Positions 27,716-33,472 of a DNA stretch of 36,404 nucleotides are shown here, piece after piece. The notes under the pieces were generated by a model. The model saw only the letters and a list, made by a program, of their open reading frames with translations, did not search any database and was not told where the DNA came from. The position numbers and the translations under genes are program-made. This DNA is from Runella sp. (GTDB lineage Bacteria > Bacteroidota > Bacteroidia > Cytophagales > Spirosomataceae), in NCBI GenBank assembly GCA_027486105.1, contig JAIXPV010000586.1:1-36404 (forward strand), written 5' to 3'. The number at the start of each line of letters is the position of its first letter. The stretch's first letter is position 1.

Positions 27716-27762
27716 AACCTTTTCCTTCCGTTGGCTGCTCTTTGAGATTGAAAGCCAAATTC

Positions 27763-28281
27763 ATGACCGAAAAAGAACTGATTCAACGCTGTCTTTCCGA
27801 CGACCGTGCCGCCCAACGTCTTCTGTACGACCGTTATAAATCGGCCATGTACACGTTGGCCTACCGCATCACGGGCGATTTTGACGAAGCCAACAGTGCC
27901 TTGCAGGACACGTTTTTGTCGGTGTTTCGCAACTTGGCCCAATATCGCGGCGAGGCTACGCTAGGCGCTTGGATTAAGTCGATTTTGGTTCGAAAGGCGT
28001 ATCACAATGCCCAAATAAAACGGCAATATATTTTGATGGATGAAATCCCGACCGACACCACAACCATCGACTGGGGAAACGACTCTATTGAGGCCGCGCA
28101 TTTAGAAAAAGCCATTTTGAACCTGCCCGAAGGCACGCGAACCGTATTTGTATTGACCGAAATCGAAGGCTATACCCACCGCGAAGTAGCCGAAATGCTG
28201 GGCGTGTCGGAGGGAACCTCTAAGTCGCAATTGTTTTACGCAAAAAAACGGTTGAGAGAAATGTTGAAGAATACACCGTAA
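27763..28281 (+). CDS. RNA polymerase ECF-type sigma factor
   Basis: MTEKELIQRCLSDDRAAQRLLYDRYKSAMYTLAYRITGDFDEANSALQDTFLSVFRNL (sigma-70 r2) and LPEGTRTVFVLTEIEGYTHREVAEMLGVSEGTSKSQLFYAKKRLREML (r4). Confidence 0.95.
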   Translation: MTEKELIQRCLSDDRAAQRLLYDRYKSAMYTLAYRITGDFDEANSALQDTFLSVFRNLAQYRGEATLGAWIKSILVRKAYHNAQIKRQYILMDEIPTDTTTIDWGNDSIEAAHLEKAILNLPEGTRTVFVLTEIEGYTHREVAEMLGVSEGTSKSQLFYAKKRLREMLKNTP

Positions 28282-28448: not shown

Positions 28449-29009
28449 ATGAAAAATTCATTGAAAGATACACTTCCGCAGTATTGCCCGCCTGAATCGG
28501 TCTGGGAAAATATTGAGCAGGCTCTCAATGAAGCGCCTTTGCAGGAAGCCCTGAGCAAGCTACCCACCTACGAGCCGCCCGTTCAGGCTTGGGTGGAGAT
28601 TGCCGCACAACTGCCAAACTCACCAAGAACGTGGTGGCGATATGCGGCCGCCGCCGCCGTGGTGTTGGCGGTAGGAATTGGTGGGTATGTGGCCATGCAA
28701 CCAAACGCCGAAAAGGCAGCTATTTCGTATTCACAGGAAAAAATCAATCCCAAAACAAGGGTCGCCCCAGACGAAACCATTGACCAACAATACGCTCAAT
28801 TACAGGCACTTTGCAAAGACAAAGTAACGATTTGTGAAAAGCCTGAGTTTAAACATCTCAAACAAGAACTCGACAATCTTACGGCGGCAAGCAACCAACT
28901 CAAAGACGCGCTCGGCTCGTACAATACTGATGCAACTTTGTCGGCTCAACTTTCTGAAATTGAGCAAGAACGCGCCGATATTCTTCGAAAACTTAATGAA
29001 AGAATATAA
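28449..29009 (+). CDS. Putative anti-sigma factor (single-TM)
   Basis: Immediately downstream of the ECF gene; one TM segment WWRYAAAAAVVLAVGIGGYVAM; C-terminal coiled coil. Confidence 0.7.
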   Translation: MKNSLKDTLPQYCPPESVWENIEQALNEAPLQEALSKLPTYEPPVQAWVEIAAQLPNSPRTWWRYAAAAAVVLAVGIGGYVAMQPNAEKAAISYSQEKINPKTRVAPDETIDQQYAQLQALCKDKVTICEKPEFKHLKQELDNLTAASNQLKDALGSYNTDATLSAQLSEIEQERADILRKLNERI

Positions 29010-29028: not shown

Positions 29029-29841
29029 ATGAAAAAACGAATCATTTTCAATCTGTGGAGATTCCCGCCCCCTTTACAAAAGGATTGGCAGTCATCAGGC
29101 TATGCTCATAGCGCCCGAAGGATTCCGTTCATTTTTACATTATTCATTTTGCATTTTACAATTTGCGGTTTAAATGCTTCTGCGCAAACCTTGCAGGTAG
29201 TGACCAAAACGGTCGAGAAAACATTTGCGGCTGACCGATACCCCAAAGTTAGGGTGTGGGGCGAGCGCAGCGACATTGAAATAACGCCCTGGAACCACAA
29301 TGAAATCAAAGCCGTCGTTGAACTGACGGCCAAACATCCCGACCGGCACACGGCCGAAAAAGATCTCGAAACCCTGCATTACACCGCCGATAAATCGGGC
29401 AGAGCGGTGAGCCTGCGCAATTTTGTGGTATTGACCAAAAACGGAGCCAAGCCCCAATCCAACCTCAAAGCACGCTTTACACTGTTTGTGCCAGCAAATT
29501 GTGCGGTAGAAATTCAGAACAGTTTCGGCAAAACAACCGTCAAAGGACTCCAAACGGTGACGCAACTGCAAACGGAGTTTTGCACGGTAGAACTAACCGA
29601 CCTGCGCGGAAACATCACCGCTCGCACGCAATTCGGCGCTTTGAAAGCCGACAACCTCAGCGGCACACTCAGCGTAGTGGCGGAGCGCACCGACCTGCTG
29701 CTCCAACAAATCAAGGGCGAATGCCGCGTACGGGCGCAACACGGAAGCCTTGACATTCAGACCGATAAGTCGCAGGTAAAACTAGACGTAGAAACCAAAA
29801 ACACTGAACTCCGCAACGGCACCACCGTGGCCAAGCATTAA
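29029..29841 (+). CDS. DUF4097-like exported (adhesin-like beta-helix) protein
   Basis: Signal-like hydrophobic stretch then repetitive strand pattern (VRVWGERSDIEITPW, NSFGKTTVKGLQTVTQLQTEFCTVELTDLRGNITARTQFGALKADNLSGTLSV) typical of DUF4097. Confidence 0.65.
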   Translation: MKKRIIFNLWRFPPPLQKDWQSSGYAHSARRIPFIFTLFILHFTICGLNASAQTLQVVTKTVEKTFAADRYPKVRVWGERSDIEITPWNHNEIKAVVELTAKHPDRHTAEKDLETLHYTADKSGRAVSLRNFVVLTKNGAKPQSNLKARFTLFVPANCAVEIQNSFGKTTVKGLQTVTQLQTEFCTVELTDLRGNITARTQFGALKADNLSGTLSVVAERTDLLLQQIKGECRVRAQHGSLDIQTDKSQVKLDVETKNTELRNGTTVAKH

Positions 29842-29859: not shown

Positions 29860-31167
29860 ATGCAAAAGTTATTATTTTTTTATTTGATAATCACCAGTTC
29901 CTCTTTACTGATGGGGCAAATAGACAGCACTCACCTCAAACATACTCAACAAGCAGGAACACTTGAAAAACAGGAATTTGTTTCTGCGGCTGATTATATT
30001 TTCAAAACTCATGAAGAAAATACGTGGTTACTAAAAGCCAATTATACTGGTACACTTACCGGCCGCTCTGTCAAGGGTGATTTAGAATACACGCTGGAGA
30101 TGGGAGGAGAAGTAAAATTAAGCCCTTCCTTCTCCATCAATGCTTTGATGGGATATAATCACAAATCCGAAGAAGTTGTTCGAGGGTTTGTCTATGGGCA
30201 GATAGAGCCAAGGTGGTATTATAACATGGCCAAACGTATTTCTAAAGGCCAAAGTGCCAATAATTTTTCGGGAAGTTACTTTTCCGCTAAAATCATGAGA
30301 TTTACCAAGCGCCATCCTGAAGAAAGCCAAACCCAGATTATTCCCCAAGATCGCTTCCTGCTTTCTTATGGTAAGCAGTATCGAATGTTTAAACACGGAT
30401 TTTTCGATTTCAGCCTAAATGCTGGTTGGCAAAAAGACAGAAAGTACACTCCCCAATATGTTTATGACAATCTCAGACAAAGGTATCAACTCACGGGTTC
30501 ACAACTAACCCCCCAACATGGTTTTGTGGTAAGTTCTGAAATTAGGTTAGGACTGACTTTGAGCAAATTAAGTCCAAAAACGAATGTTACTACTTGCGAT
30601 ATTTTTAGATGTTTTGAAGAAGAGTATCGCATGTTTAAGATAGATATGACAAAGCTTTTTTATATAGCGCCAAACAATGCAACCATCTCTTTATCAACAG
30701 CCTATGAACAAAAAATCAAACAGTCAGCATGGTCACTTAATCAGGAATTTCGGATGGATTATGGCTATCATTACAATCATACTGTTTTTTCTGCCACTAG
30801 CTCTAGTACTGAAGAAAGTAATGGTTTTACCTTGCGCTATGTCATAGAACCTCGATACTATTACAGTCTCAAAAAAAGAATCTATCAGGGCAAGTCTGCC
30901 AACAACCTTTCTGGTACCTACGTAGCGCTACACCATGTCAACACCTTTTATTATACTTTTTTGAACTTGAGTGCGGCTGATGCTCATTTACGCGCCCGTT
31001 TTGTTTCCGCCCTAGGGGCCGTTTGGGGCGTACAGCACCGGCTTTTTTCAAAAGGATTTGTAGATGCAAAAATTGGCGTTGTGCGCAAACTCAACGAACG
31101 ATTTCACGATTTTATCATCCCAGGTGTTAACCCTATTTTAGATATTAAGGTCGGCTTCGCCCTCTAA
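29860..31167 (+). CDS. Exported outer-membrane-like protein, internally duplicated, paralog A
   Basis: Signal peptide; two copies of module [IEPRWYYNMAKRISKGQSANNFSGSYFS.. / IEPRYYYSLKKRIYQGKSANNLSGTYVA..] followed by [YGKQYRMFKHGFFDFSLNAGW / WGVQHRLFSKGFVDAKIGVVR]. Confidence 0.75.
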   Translation: MQKLLFFYLIITSSSLLMGQIDSTHLKHTQQAGTLEKQEFVSAADYIFKTHEENTWLLKANYTGTLTGRSVKGDLEYTLEMGGEVKLSPSFSINALMGYNHKSEEVVRGFVYGQIEPRWYYNMAKRISKGQSANNFSGSYFSAKIMRFTKRHPEESQTQIIPQDRFLLSYGKQYRMFKHGFFDFSLNAGWQKDRKYTPQYVYDNLRQRYQLTGSQLTPQHGFVVSSEIRLGLTLSKLSPKTNVTTCDIFRCFEEEYRMFKIDMTKLFYIAPNNATISLSTAYEQKIKQSAWSLNQEFRMDYGYHYNHTVFSATSSSTEESNGFTLRYVIEPRYYYSLKKRIYQGKSANNLSGTYVALHHVNTFYYTFLNLSAADAHLRARFVSALGAVWGVQHRLFSKGFVDAKIGVVRKLNERFHDFIIPGVNPILDIKVGFAL

Positions 31168-31179
31168 ACCTCCATAGCC

Positions 31180-32616
31180 ATGAAAAAATTATCCCTCTTC
31201 CTTTATTCTACTTTCTACCTCCTAAGCTACACCTTCGCCCAAACCGACTCCGTCCGCATTACCCACACGCAGGAGACTGGAACGCTCGAAAAACAGCGTT
31301 TTATAGACCAATATGATTATGTCTTTATGACCAAAGAGCCTACGAAGTGGATGGTGAAGGGGTATGGGAATGTAAATAATTTACTCGGTTCTGAAATTTT
31401 CCAAGGTGGGTATATAAAAAGGACGGTTGATTTTAGAGTGGGCGTAGAACGAAAGTTAAGTCCTTCCTTTTCTATTGCCATAGAAGCAGCTCGAAATCCT
31501 ATTTCTACGTTTAGAAAAAATGGCTTTTTTGATTATTCAGATTACTATTCAACCAGCCGCAAACGGTGGGTTACATCCGCCGAACTGAGGTGGTACTATG
31601 ACATGGCAAGCCGCATCAGACAAGGAAAAAACAGCAACAATTTTTCGGGGAATTATCTGTCGCTCAGATACGAAAGAGTCTGGCAAAATGAAAATTCTGT
31701 TGCTACGGGGTTTTCAGGCACACATGGCAAATGGAATACCGACTATTTCGGCAGTTATTACCATTCTCAACTCAGTCTGAATTATGGTATCCAACGACGT
31801 TTTTTCAGATACGGTCTTATTGATTTTTCGATTGGATTAAATCGAAACACTGACCAGCTAATCCACCGAAAATATACTTTTTTAAATGGGGACAATTCAA
31901 TCAAGCAACCTATAGATTGGAATAACATTCAAAGCAGTTCTACATCCACTCCGCAGCACAATTGGTCCATCACGACTAATTTTAAAGTAGGTTTAGCCTT
32001 GGCTGACTTTAAAAAAGCCTCAGAAGTCGCCCCCAGACAAGTCTTCCAAACACTTGAAAATGAAAATCAAATGTTGAAAATTAGTTGGCCCAGAATATTA
32101 CTCAGCACTTCTGCTCAGACATTTAATGGAAGTATTGGTTACGAACAAAAAATTGCCAAATCTGCGTTTTCAATCAACACTTATTTGAATTTCTCCTTCT
32201 ATAACTCTTTTATAAAAAACACCACAATATACGATCCTGCGACAAAAACAAACTTTACAAGTAATAGTCAAAGCTCAAGCATTGGCGGCTTTTTACATCT
32301 TCAGCCACGTTGGTATTTTTTGATGAATCGTCAGGTGGCTCTGGGAAAAACTGGTACTAATTTATCAGGAGTTTATGCGGGCTTGAACAATGTTGGTTTT
32401 GGTTCATACGGGTTTTCAAAAAACGACCTATACAAAAACACGTTTAGGTTCTCTCCCATTTTTGTAAATACAGGCTTGTTAATGGGCTATCAACGGAAAT
32501 TATTTCAAAAGGGCTTCATTGACATAAACCTCTCAAAAGGGCTAATTAACCGTCATCCTTATTTACTTGGTCCAAGCAACTTCATTTTTGACTTCAAACT
32601 CGGCTTTGCCCTCTAA
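31180..32616 (+). CDS. Exported outer-membrane-like protein, internally duplicated, paralog B
   Basis: Same N-terminal signature (HTQETGTLEKQRF vs HTQQAGTLEKQEF) and same two-module layout (AELRWYYDMASRIRQGKNSNNFSGNYLSL; LQPRWYFLMNRQVALGKTGTNLSGVYAGL). Confidence 0.75.
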   Translation: MKKLSLFLYSTFYLLSYTFAQTDSVRITHTQETGTLEKQRFIDQYDYVFMTKEPTKWMVKGYGNVNNLLGSEIFQGGYIKRTVDFRVGVERKLSPSFSIAIEAARNPISTFRKNGFFDYSDYYSTSRKRWVTSAELRWYYDMASRIRQGKNSNNFSGNYLSLRYERVWQNENSVATGFSGTHGKWNTDYFGSYYHSQLSLNYGIQRRFFRYGLIDFSIGLNRNTDQLIHRKYTFLNGDNSIKQPIDWNNIQSSSTSTPQHNWSITTNFKVGLALADFKKASEVAPRQVFQTLENENQMLKISWPRILLSTSAQTFNGSIGYEQKIAKSAFSINTYLNFSFYNSFIKNTTIYDPATKTNFTSNSQSSSIGGFLHLQPRWYFLMNRQVALGKTGTNLSGVYAGLNNVGFGSYGFSKNDLYKNTFRFSPIFVNTGLLMGYQRKLFQKGFIDINLSKGLINRHPYLLGPSNFIFDFKLGFAL

Positions 32617-32732
32617 ACCTCCACAGCCATGAAAACCACCCCTTTAGAGAAGGTCTTCTTTAAAATGTCACTTTGATTATTTATCACTGAACCACGCCCA
32701 AAAGCATCCCTGCATTTTTTGGCGTTTTTATG

Positions 32733-32740
32733 TACTTTTG
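32733..32740 (+). promoter_or_regulatory. Candidate Bacteroidota -7 box TAnnTTTG
   Basis: TACTTTTG, last base 17 nt before the ATG of the nucleotidyltransferase gene; no clear -33 TTTG at ideal spacing. Confidence 0.35.
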
Positions 32741-32756
32741 TCAAAAAGACATTGGT

Positions 32757-33095
32757 ATGAGTCACCGCGCTATTCCTTCCGAACTCAAATCGTTGCTGGC
32801 AGATCTTAAAAAAGGGCTATTGGATTTATATGGTGAACGTTTACATCAGGTGATTCTCTTTGGCTCCTATGCCCGTGGGGAACAGCGTGAGGAGTCGGAT
32901 GTAGATGTACTGGTAGTTCTGAATGATGAAAAAATCCATCCTCTTACCGAAATAAGCAACATGTCGTTGATGAACAGTGATTTAGGATTAAAATATGATA
33001 AATGGATTTCAACCATCCCAGTAGTCAAAACTCGGTTTTCTTCATTGAAACTACCGTTATATGAGAATGTAAGAGAAGACGGTATAGAATTATGA
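32757..33095 (+). CDS. Minimal nucleotidyltransferase (MNT) domain protein, HEPN partner
   Basis: VILFGSYARGEQREESDVDVLVVL = GSxARGxxxxxSDxDxxV signature; ATGA overlap with the next gene. Confidence 0.9.
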   Translation: MSHRAIPSELKSLLADLKKGLLDLYGERLHQVILFGSYARGEQREESDVDVLVVLNDEKIHPLTEISNMSLMNSDLGLKYDKWISTIPVVKTRFSSLKLPLYENVREDGIEL

Positions 33096-33472
33096 ATTCT
33101 CTGATCATTTTTCAAAAAGCGGAAGACTGTTTGCAGGATGCAACTGATTTTTTGGAGCAAGGGCGTTATGAAGCTAGCGTAAATCGCGCGTATTACGCTA
33201 TTTTTCATTGTATTCAGGTTTTACTTTGGATAGAAAACATTCATACTAAATCTCACGAAGGAGCTCATAATCAATTCCGATTGAAATACATTAAAACGGG
33301 GATTTTTCCATTGGATTCTAATATTTGGCTACAAAAATCTTATGAAAAGAGACGATTTAGCGACTATGATTATGACGACATTATCTCTGAAGAAGCCAAT
33401 GAATCCGTAGAAAATGCCAAAAACTTTTTTAATATAACTTACCAATTCCTGAGTCAAAACTCCCACCTCTAA
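33092..33472 (+). CDS. UPF0332-type HEPN domain protein
   Basis: AEDCLQDATDFLEQGRYEASVNRAYYAIFHCIQVLL...SHEGAHNQFRLKYIKTGIF...EKRRFSDYDYDDIISEEANESVENAKNF matches the UPF0332/PF05168 layout. Confidence 0.9.
   Translation: MNSLIIFQKAEDCLQDATDFLEQGRYEASVNRAYYAIFHCIQVLLWIENIHTKSHEGAHNQFRLKYIKTGIFPLDSNIWLQKSYEKRRFSDYDYDDIISEEANESVENAKNFFNITYQFLSQNSHL

Follow-up and report, generated by a model that had tools for sequence, protein, structure and literature searches.

Single and doubled OmpA-class barrels in a conserved ECF sigma, anti-sigma and toast-rack operon of Cytophagales carry a motif of the anti-sigma

In Runella sp., two adjacent genes encode proteins that each contain two copies of one module, and according to structure models this module is an eight-stranded outer-membrane barrel of the OmpA/Ail class. 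In a conserved operon for an ECF sigma factor, an anti-sigma factor and a toast-rack protein, the barrels are the output end, and their N-terminal tails share a short periplasmic motif with the anti-sigma, which has lost it at a locus where the barrels are lost as well. It is tentatively proposed, with a probability of roughly 45%, that the barrels would be the outer-membrane arm of a sigma switch, coupled to it by the peptide that they have in common with the anti-sigma. The genes lie in what is here called the window, the whole stretch of 36,404 nucleotides that was analysed (contig JAIXPV010000586.1).

On the plus strand of the window, the genes for the ECF sigma factor, the anti-sigma, the toast-rack protein, ORF A and ORF B are followed by an MNT/HEPN pair, by thrB, which we take from sequence knowledge to encode homoserine kinase, and by a peptidase gene. 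The ECF sigma gene (27742-28281), the first gene of the conserved operon, is certain, as had been annotated before, with Pfam matches to Sigma70_r2 (5e-9) and Sigma70_r4_2 (2e-15), and its true start is probably the ATG at 27763. The anti-sigma (28449-29009, aligned with n=26 homologues) matches the NCBIfam anti-sigma profile with 2.7e-8, which is below the cut-off. The next gene (29029-29841) encodes a secreted protein with a signal peptide that was read from the sequence; this protein alone stays below cut-off (0.0065 to PF22744), but because 17 of 20 relatives match PF13349 (DUF4097, best 5.9e-14), it can be assigned as toast-rack, in agreement with the DUF4097-like gene of the first-pass annotation. 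ORF A (29860-31167) encodes a two-module outer-membrane barrel protein of 435 aa, as modelled by AF2, and ORF B (31180-32616) its two-module paralogue of 478 aa, with 35% identity over 431 aa. From the anti-sigma gene to ORF B, the genes are separated by 19, 18 and 12 nt, the 12 nt lying between ORF A and ORF B. The closest orthologues of the window are found in R. defluvii, R. limosa and R. aurantiaca, and the ORF B orthologues of other Runella are 76% identical.

An identical spacer, GGCTT(C/T)GCCCTCTAAACCTCCA(T/C)AGCCATGAAAA, follows ORF A as well as ORF B (31148-31185 and 32602-32640), and 3' of ORF B it runs into an ORF of 15 codons, apparently all that is left of a third tandem copy. An MNT-type nucleotidyltransferase (NTP_transf_2, 1.5e-11) and a HEPN protein (1.5e-13) are encoded at 32730-33472, between ORF B and thrB, likely as an MNT-HEPN toxin-antitoxin module, and some other Runella have small ORFs at this position.

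The fold is most easily seen in a natural single-module relative from another Runella locus (L070, 251 aa), which comes with its own ECF, anti-sigma and toast-rack genes. AF2 models this protein with exactly eight strands and a short helix in one turn, and the best class of PDB structures found by Foldseek is that of the eight-stranded barrels OmpA, Ail, OprF, NspA and OmpX (TMt about 0.5-0.65). The AF2 model of ORF A (27 homologues, pLDDT 76.6, pTM 0.71) has 8+8 strands, with the same short helix in both halves; by DSSP, eight strands each belong to module 1 (residues 56-234, 30025-30561) and module 2 (residues 257-435, 30628-31164). In ORF B, the alignment places the modules at about 31342-32013 and 32056-32613. 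Every strand of the module has one hydrophobic, outward face and one polar face, and the inward composition is similar in single, N-terminal, C-terminal and Hymenobacter-type modules. The eight up-and-down strands, the hydrophobic outward face, the short periplasmic turns and the signal peptide are all characteristics of the OmpA class. In the model, the text PRWYYxMxxRIxxGKSANNxSGxY corresponds to strand 4, a long periplasmic turn and strand 5, and GxQxRxF to strand 6 with the turn after it; almost all of the near-invariant residues are found at this periplasmic end, and length variation is found at the opposite end. AF2 strands, Foldseek class and outward faces speak for the outer-membrane beta-rich module that had been proposed from the sequence, but the fold is not the uncharacterised one that had been supposed: it is an ordinary eight-stranded OmpA-class barrel with a profile-profile tie to DUF3575.

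This tie is a remote one. Candidates for a named family of the barrel from Pfam, NCBIfam, PHROGs and PDB sequence searches were all sub-threshold; ORF A and ORF B reach the threshold of no Pfam, NCBIfam or PHROG family, and they match neither DUF3575 (PF12099) at its gathering cut-off of 21.1 bits nor OMP_b-brl (PF13505 / PF13568) at the HMM cut-off. No DUF3575 match was obtained in the window genome at 1e-5, and the best relative reached 0.0013. By hhalign, the module aligns with DUF3575 with P-values of 1.5e-11 (probability 97%) and 4e-12, and an OmpA-like barrel alignment as negative control gave 0.033 (probability 1.5%). The module is thus, as far as profiles can tell, a remote, sub-threshold relative of DUF3575, and the earlier view that no named family can be assigned holds at threshold level but not for the profile-profile comparison. 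DUF3575, a family of Bacteroidota outer-membrane barrels, has the same eight-stranded layout and the key residues YER, PExRYY, GxQW and LDxFxGPG, but it lacks the long RIxxGKSANNxSG periplasmic turn of the module, and 0 of 9 aligned DUF3575 proteins are doubled. With OmpA, Ail, OprF and OmpX the single module has the fold class in common; there is no match at the sequence level, and the window proteins differ also by their signalling-like N-terminal tail and the paired fusion.

The motif [EQ][PL]R[WY]Y occurs at 30205, 30847, 31582 and 32302, at most 10 nt from the positions given in the first-pass annotation, and the four module copies, two in each of the adjacent ORFs, are therefore as described there. 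The SFSIN-like text, the K(V/L)GFAL ends and the N-terminal tags HTQ..GTLEKQ.F all match the sequence as well, and the GxQxRxF element is present in all four copies, except that copy 4 has K for R. In Smith-Waterman comparisons of the halves, which in all cases exceeded the background of 500 shuffles, the z-scores were 15.9 for the two halves of ORF A and 9.1 for those of ORF B, versus 41 for the two N-terminal and 31 for the two C-terminal halves. As halves at the same position are more alike than halves within one protein, the module was doubled first and the gene copied afterwards, which is the order that had been suggested and which is in line with a tree of 124 modules. In this tree, 40 of 42 C-terminal modules form one well-supported clade, the N-terminal modules group separately, and the single-module proteins stand apart, which fits a single old fusion that may have been followed by many tandem gene duplications. 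Tandem doubles number 2 to 4 in Runella and 2 to 3 in Siphonobacter-like genomes, and Dyadobacter has several loci per genome. The linker of ORF A (residues 243-255) contains a CD(I/V)xxC pair that is conserved in most double proteins and possibly forms a second disulfide.

The doubling can be read in two ways. It is somewhat probable that each double protein forms two separate eight-stranded barrels side by side, as a multi-barrel outer-membrane protein. Each module has a complete inward charged set (E in all N-terminal, C-terminal and Hymenobacter-type modules; R, G and Q in nearly all), the inward volume and charge of each module are the same as in single-module proteins, unlike barrels are fused in loci of the Hymenobacter and Spirosoma types, and the AF2 double model fits 16-stranded porins poorly (TMq 0.16-0.28). 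The pTM of 0.71, on the other hand, implies that the halves are confidently placed relative to each other, the Foldseek top hits of the double model, for which the superpositions were sub-optimal, are barrels of 12-16 strands with no eight-stranded barrel among the 50 matches listed, and a closure of beta9 with beta16 is not accompanied by residue co-variation. One merged 16-stranded barrel per double protein, which would be the natural equivalent of the engineered tandem-OmpX pore, could also be formed, with a chance that we put a little short of even. Besides the pTM of the ORF A model, a PgaA_barrel match in 1 of 27 relatives (2.6e-4) and weak co-variation of beta8-beta9 and beta1-beta16 (p about 0.05-0.1), with none for beta9-beta16, point to it, but beta1-beta8 co-variation is equally high, the TM to 16-stranded barrels is low, and the interior composition is the same as in single-module proteins. 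The closing-strand signals are mixed and the data are thin: mean-field DCA and mutual information were applied to 115 and then 146 double proteins, with an effective number of about 64-71, and the positive controls were weak.

For both architectures there are known counterparts. Multi-barrel outer-membrane proteins have reportedly been described by Solan et al. in 2021 (cited in PMC8592465 and PMC9603273). More than one barrel per chain would be the common feature, but the examples treated in these two papers, GfcD/YjbH, are larger and unlike the present ones, for which close single-module relatives and the operon context survive. A tandem OmpX pore is said to have been engineered by Arnold et al. 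in 2007. Barrel evolution through strand duplication is treated in PMC6340704, and the tandem OmpX cited there resembles the double proteins in that an eight-stranded unit was doubled; it is an engineered doubling, whereas the one described here is natural, and single-module relatives of it still occupy the same slot of the operon.

The ECF, anti-sigma and toast-rack genes are located 5' of the barrel gene or genes in nearly all of the operon loci that were examined, with gaps that are mostly below 50 nt and often 4-nt overlaps. The operon was found across Runella, Dyadobacter, Siphonobacter, Spirosoma-like and Hymenobacter-like genomes (the last two labels being inferred from group codes), so that the synteny across Cytophagales loci substantiates the conserved ECF / anti-sigma / DUF4097-type / barrel operon, and gene spacing and synteny suggest that its genes are co-regulated. 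None of the ORFs in the loci examined joins two of the ECF, anti-sigma, toast-rack and barrel profiles. Across Cytophagales, the family comprises single-module proteins, tandem doubles (Runella, Dyadobacter, Siphonobacter) and, in the Hymenobacter-like group, fusions of the module with an OmpA-like barrel that is unrelated to it; accordingly, the barrel slot can hold single barrels, 2-3 tandem single barrels, tandem doubles or such fusions. The latter are slot proteins of 440-500 aa (L174-L184), whose unrelated barrel matches PF13505 with 1.5e-4, below cut-off. Three Spirosoma-like loci (L054 3485-5950, L057 6906-9410, L065 6468-8936) encode two additional outer-membrane proteins, about 390 and 430 aa long, between the toast-rack and barrel genes, one of which, in L065, holds two OMP_b-brl domains and is another double barrel. 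Many family barrels of Dyadobacter are encoded outside the operon. A sister operon of ECF, anti-sigma and toast-rack genes that has no barrel gene is widespread in the order (L377-L382, L383-L412) and occurs also in the window genome (G000:C652 = L390).

The anti-sigma has cytoplasmic LPxYxPxxxxWxxI repeats, one TM helix, a periplasmic motif and a coiled coil. The alignment of 26 homologues contains only four invariant columns, E113, C138, C145 and L153, and E113 is the Glu of the motif. The LPxYxPxxxxWxxI text occurs twice in the cytoplasmic part, as two putative sigma-contact helices, and the two invariant Cys of the coiled coil are six residues apart and probably form a disulfide.

The N-terminal tag of the barrels had been noted before, but that the anti-sigma has a copy of its motif is a finding outside the first-pass annotation. 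The barrel tails and the anti-sigma of the operon carry the same linear motif [IV]x[YF][ST]xE, in anti-sigmas about 10-15 residues past the TM helix, in barrels about 6-10 residues past the signal peptide and ahead of strand 1. In the window, the anti-sigma has ISYSQE just periplasmic of the inner membrane (28722-28739) and ORF B has ITHTQE (31258-31275), so that ISYSQEK faces ITHTQET; other such pairs are ISYSQEK / ISYSEEK in L207 and IAYSEEV / ISYGEET in L188. In ORF A the motif is degenerate and has lost its Glu (LKHTQQ, 29935-29952), which the R. defluvii orthologue keeps (LTHTQE). The strict motif is present in 52 of 63 operon anti-sigmas (1.4 expected by shuffling, maximum 6), 77 of 119 operon barrels (3.6 expected) and 20 of 27 family barrels outside the operon (0.9 expected), counts for which Fisher values overstate independence, the loci being related by descent. 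The motif is short, and its strict form is missing from about a quarter to a third of the barrels. It was found in 0 of 73 toast-rack proteins, 0 of 22 anti-sigmas of barrel-less operons and 0 of 16 distant relatives outside any ECF operon, and even a looser pattern occurs in other secreted proteins of the loci at chance level (7 of 78 versus 7.2 expected). At a syntenic locus of another Runella (G119, L375), the toast-rack and barrel genes are gone and the ECF gene is kept; of the orthologous anti-sigma, the cytoplasmic and TM parts remain, whereas the motif and the coiled coil have disappeared.

Both peptides face the periplasm, one being anchored at the inner and one at the outer membrane. 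From this arrangement we infer that the copies of the motif may dock to a common site, most simply on the toast-rack protein, as the operon encodes no further periplasmic protein. In that case the barrels would either compete with the anti-sigma or be connected to it through the periplasm, the amount or state of outer-membrane barrels would set the release of the sigma factor, and this factor would activate its own operon. A more specific version, in which the sigma factor would sense barrels by peptide mimicry, with interchangeable docking peptides that are read by the periplasmic toast-rack protein and not via a TonB receptor, a DegS-type protease or a fused tether, is rather unlikely. As sister toast-rack operons without barrels have no strict motif, the toast-rack protein alone does not require it. 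At the equivalent place, anti-sigmas of barrel-less sister operons have PTYA(K/R)E, a YA(K/R)E-like version, in the same family and not in other families, so that a role of the toast-rack protein as universal reader of YxxE is no more than a hypothesis.

It is also possible, if somewhat doubtful, that the sigma factor has the barrels simply as effectors, made under envelope stress as structural or surface proteins of the OmpA/Ail kind, and that the motif is a sorting, chaperone or protease signal with no switching role. The OmpA-class fold agrees with this, as do the members outside the operon and the other, unrelated barrel proteins in the slot, and up to four tandem copies and diverse paralogues look like surface diversification. 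A general signal is, however, difficult to reconcile with a motif that is confined to the anti-sigma/barrel pair, at chance in other secreted proteins and at zero in toast-rack proteins and barrel-less-operon anti-sigmas, and that the anti-sigma loses where barrels are lost. That strand pairing would hold the two peptides directly together, without the toast-rack protein as receptor, is improbable: both segments are beta-like with alternating hydrophobic and polar residues, and near-identical as in the L207 pair, but motif pairs within a locus are not more similar than permuted pairs (1006 of 5000 permutations were as high), so that there is no lock-and-key co-variation, and the toast-rack gene nearly always accompanies the pair.

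A switch by docking would be the split-protein counterpart of the Dma anti-sigmas of Bacteroides. In these dual membrane-spanning anti-sigmas of Bacteroides thetaiotaomicron, one chain comprises the anti-sigma, a TM segment, a disordered tether and the barrel (PMC13088901). Both systems have an ECF sigma factor, an anti-sigma and an outer-membrane barrel in one circuit, and in Bacteroidota only, but Dma is a single chain, whereas here the anti-sigma and barrel genes are separate, with the toast-rack gene between them and a peptide in common (PMC13088901); a Dma-type fusion of an anti-sigma domain and a barrel in one polypeptide does not occur in the loci. Dma genes are defined by an adjoining cognate sigma of the ECF21 group, and here an ECF gene adjoins that was recognised at the Pfam level. 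Toast-rack (DUF4097) membrane-stress operons, too, link the toast-rack protein to a transcription regulator, sometimes a sigma factor, but for these an intracellular Toastrack was predicted (PMC11237479), whereas that of the window has a signal peptide and its operon adds outer-membrane barrels.

There are thus precedents for the fold, for the ECF/anti-sigma logic and for toast-rack stress operons, while the gene combination, the occurrence of single alongside doubled forms in the same slot, and the common peptide were not found in open-licence PMC papers. In the literature searched, the one clear case in which anti-sigma sensing in Bacteroidota is linked to a barrel is that of the Dma proteins. 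A peptide that is common to an anti-sigma and an outer-membrane barrel, and that is lost along with the barrels, provides a simple target of two residues, and as single, tandem-double and mixed-double barrels are found in the same slot, the natural family, and not engineered OmpX alone, lends itself to studying how one eight-stranded barrel became doubled.
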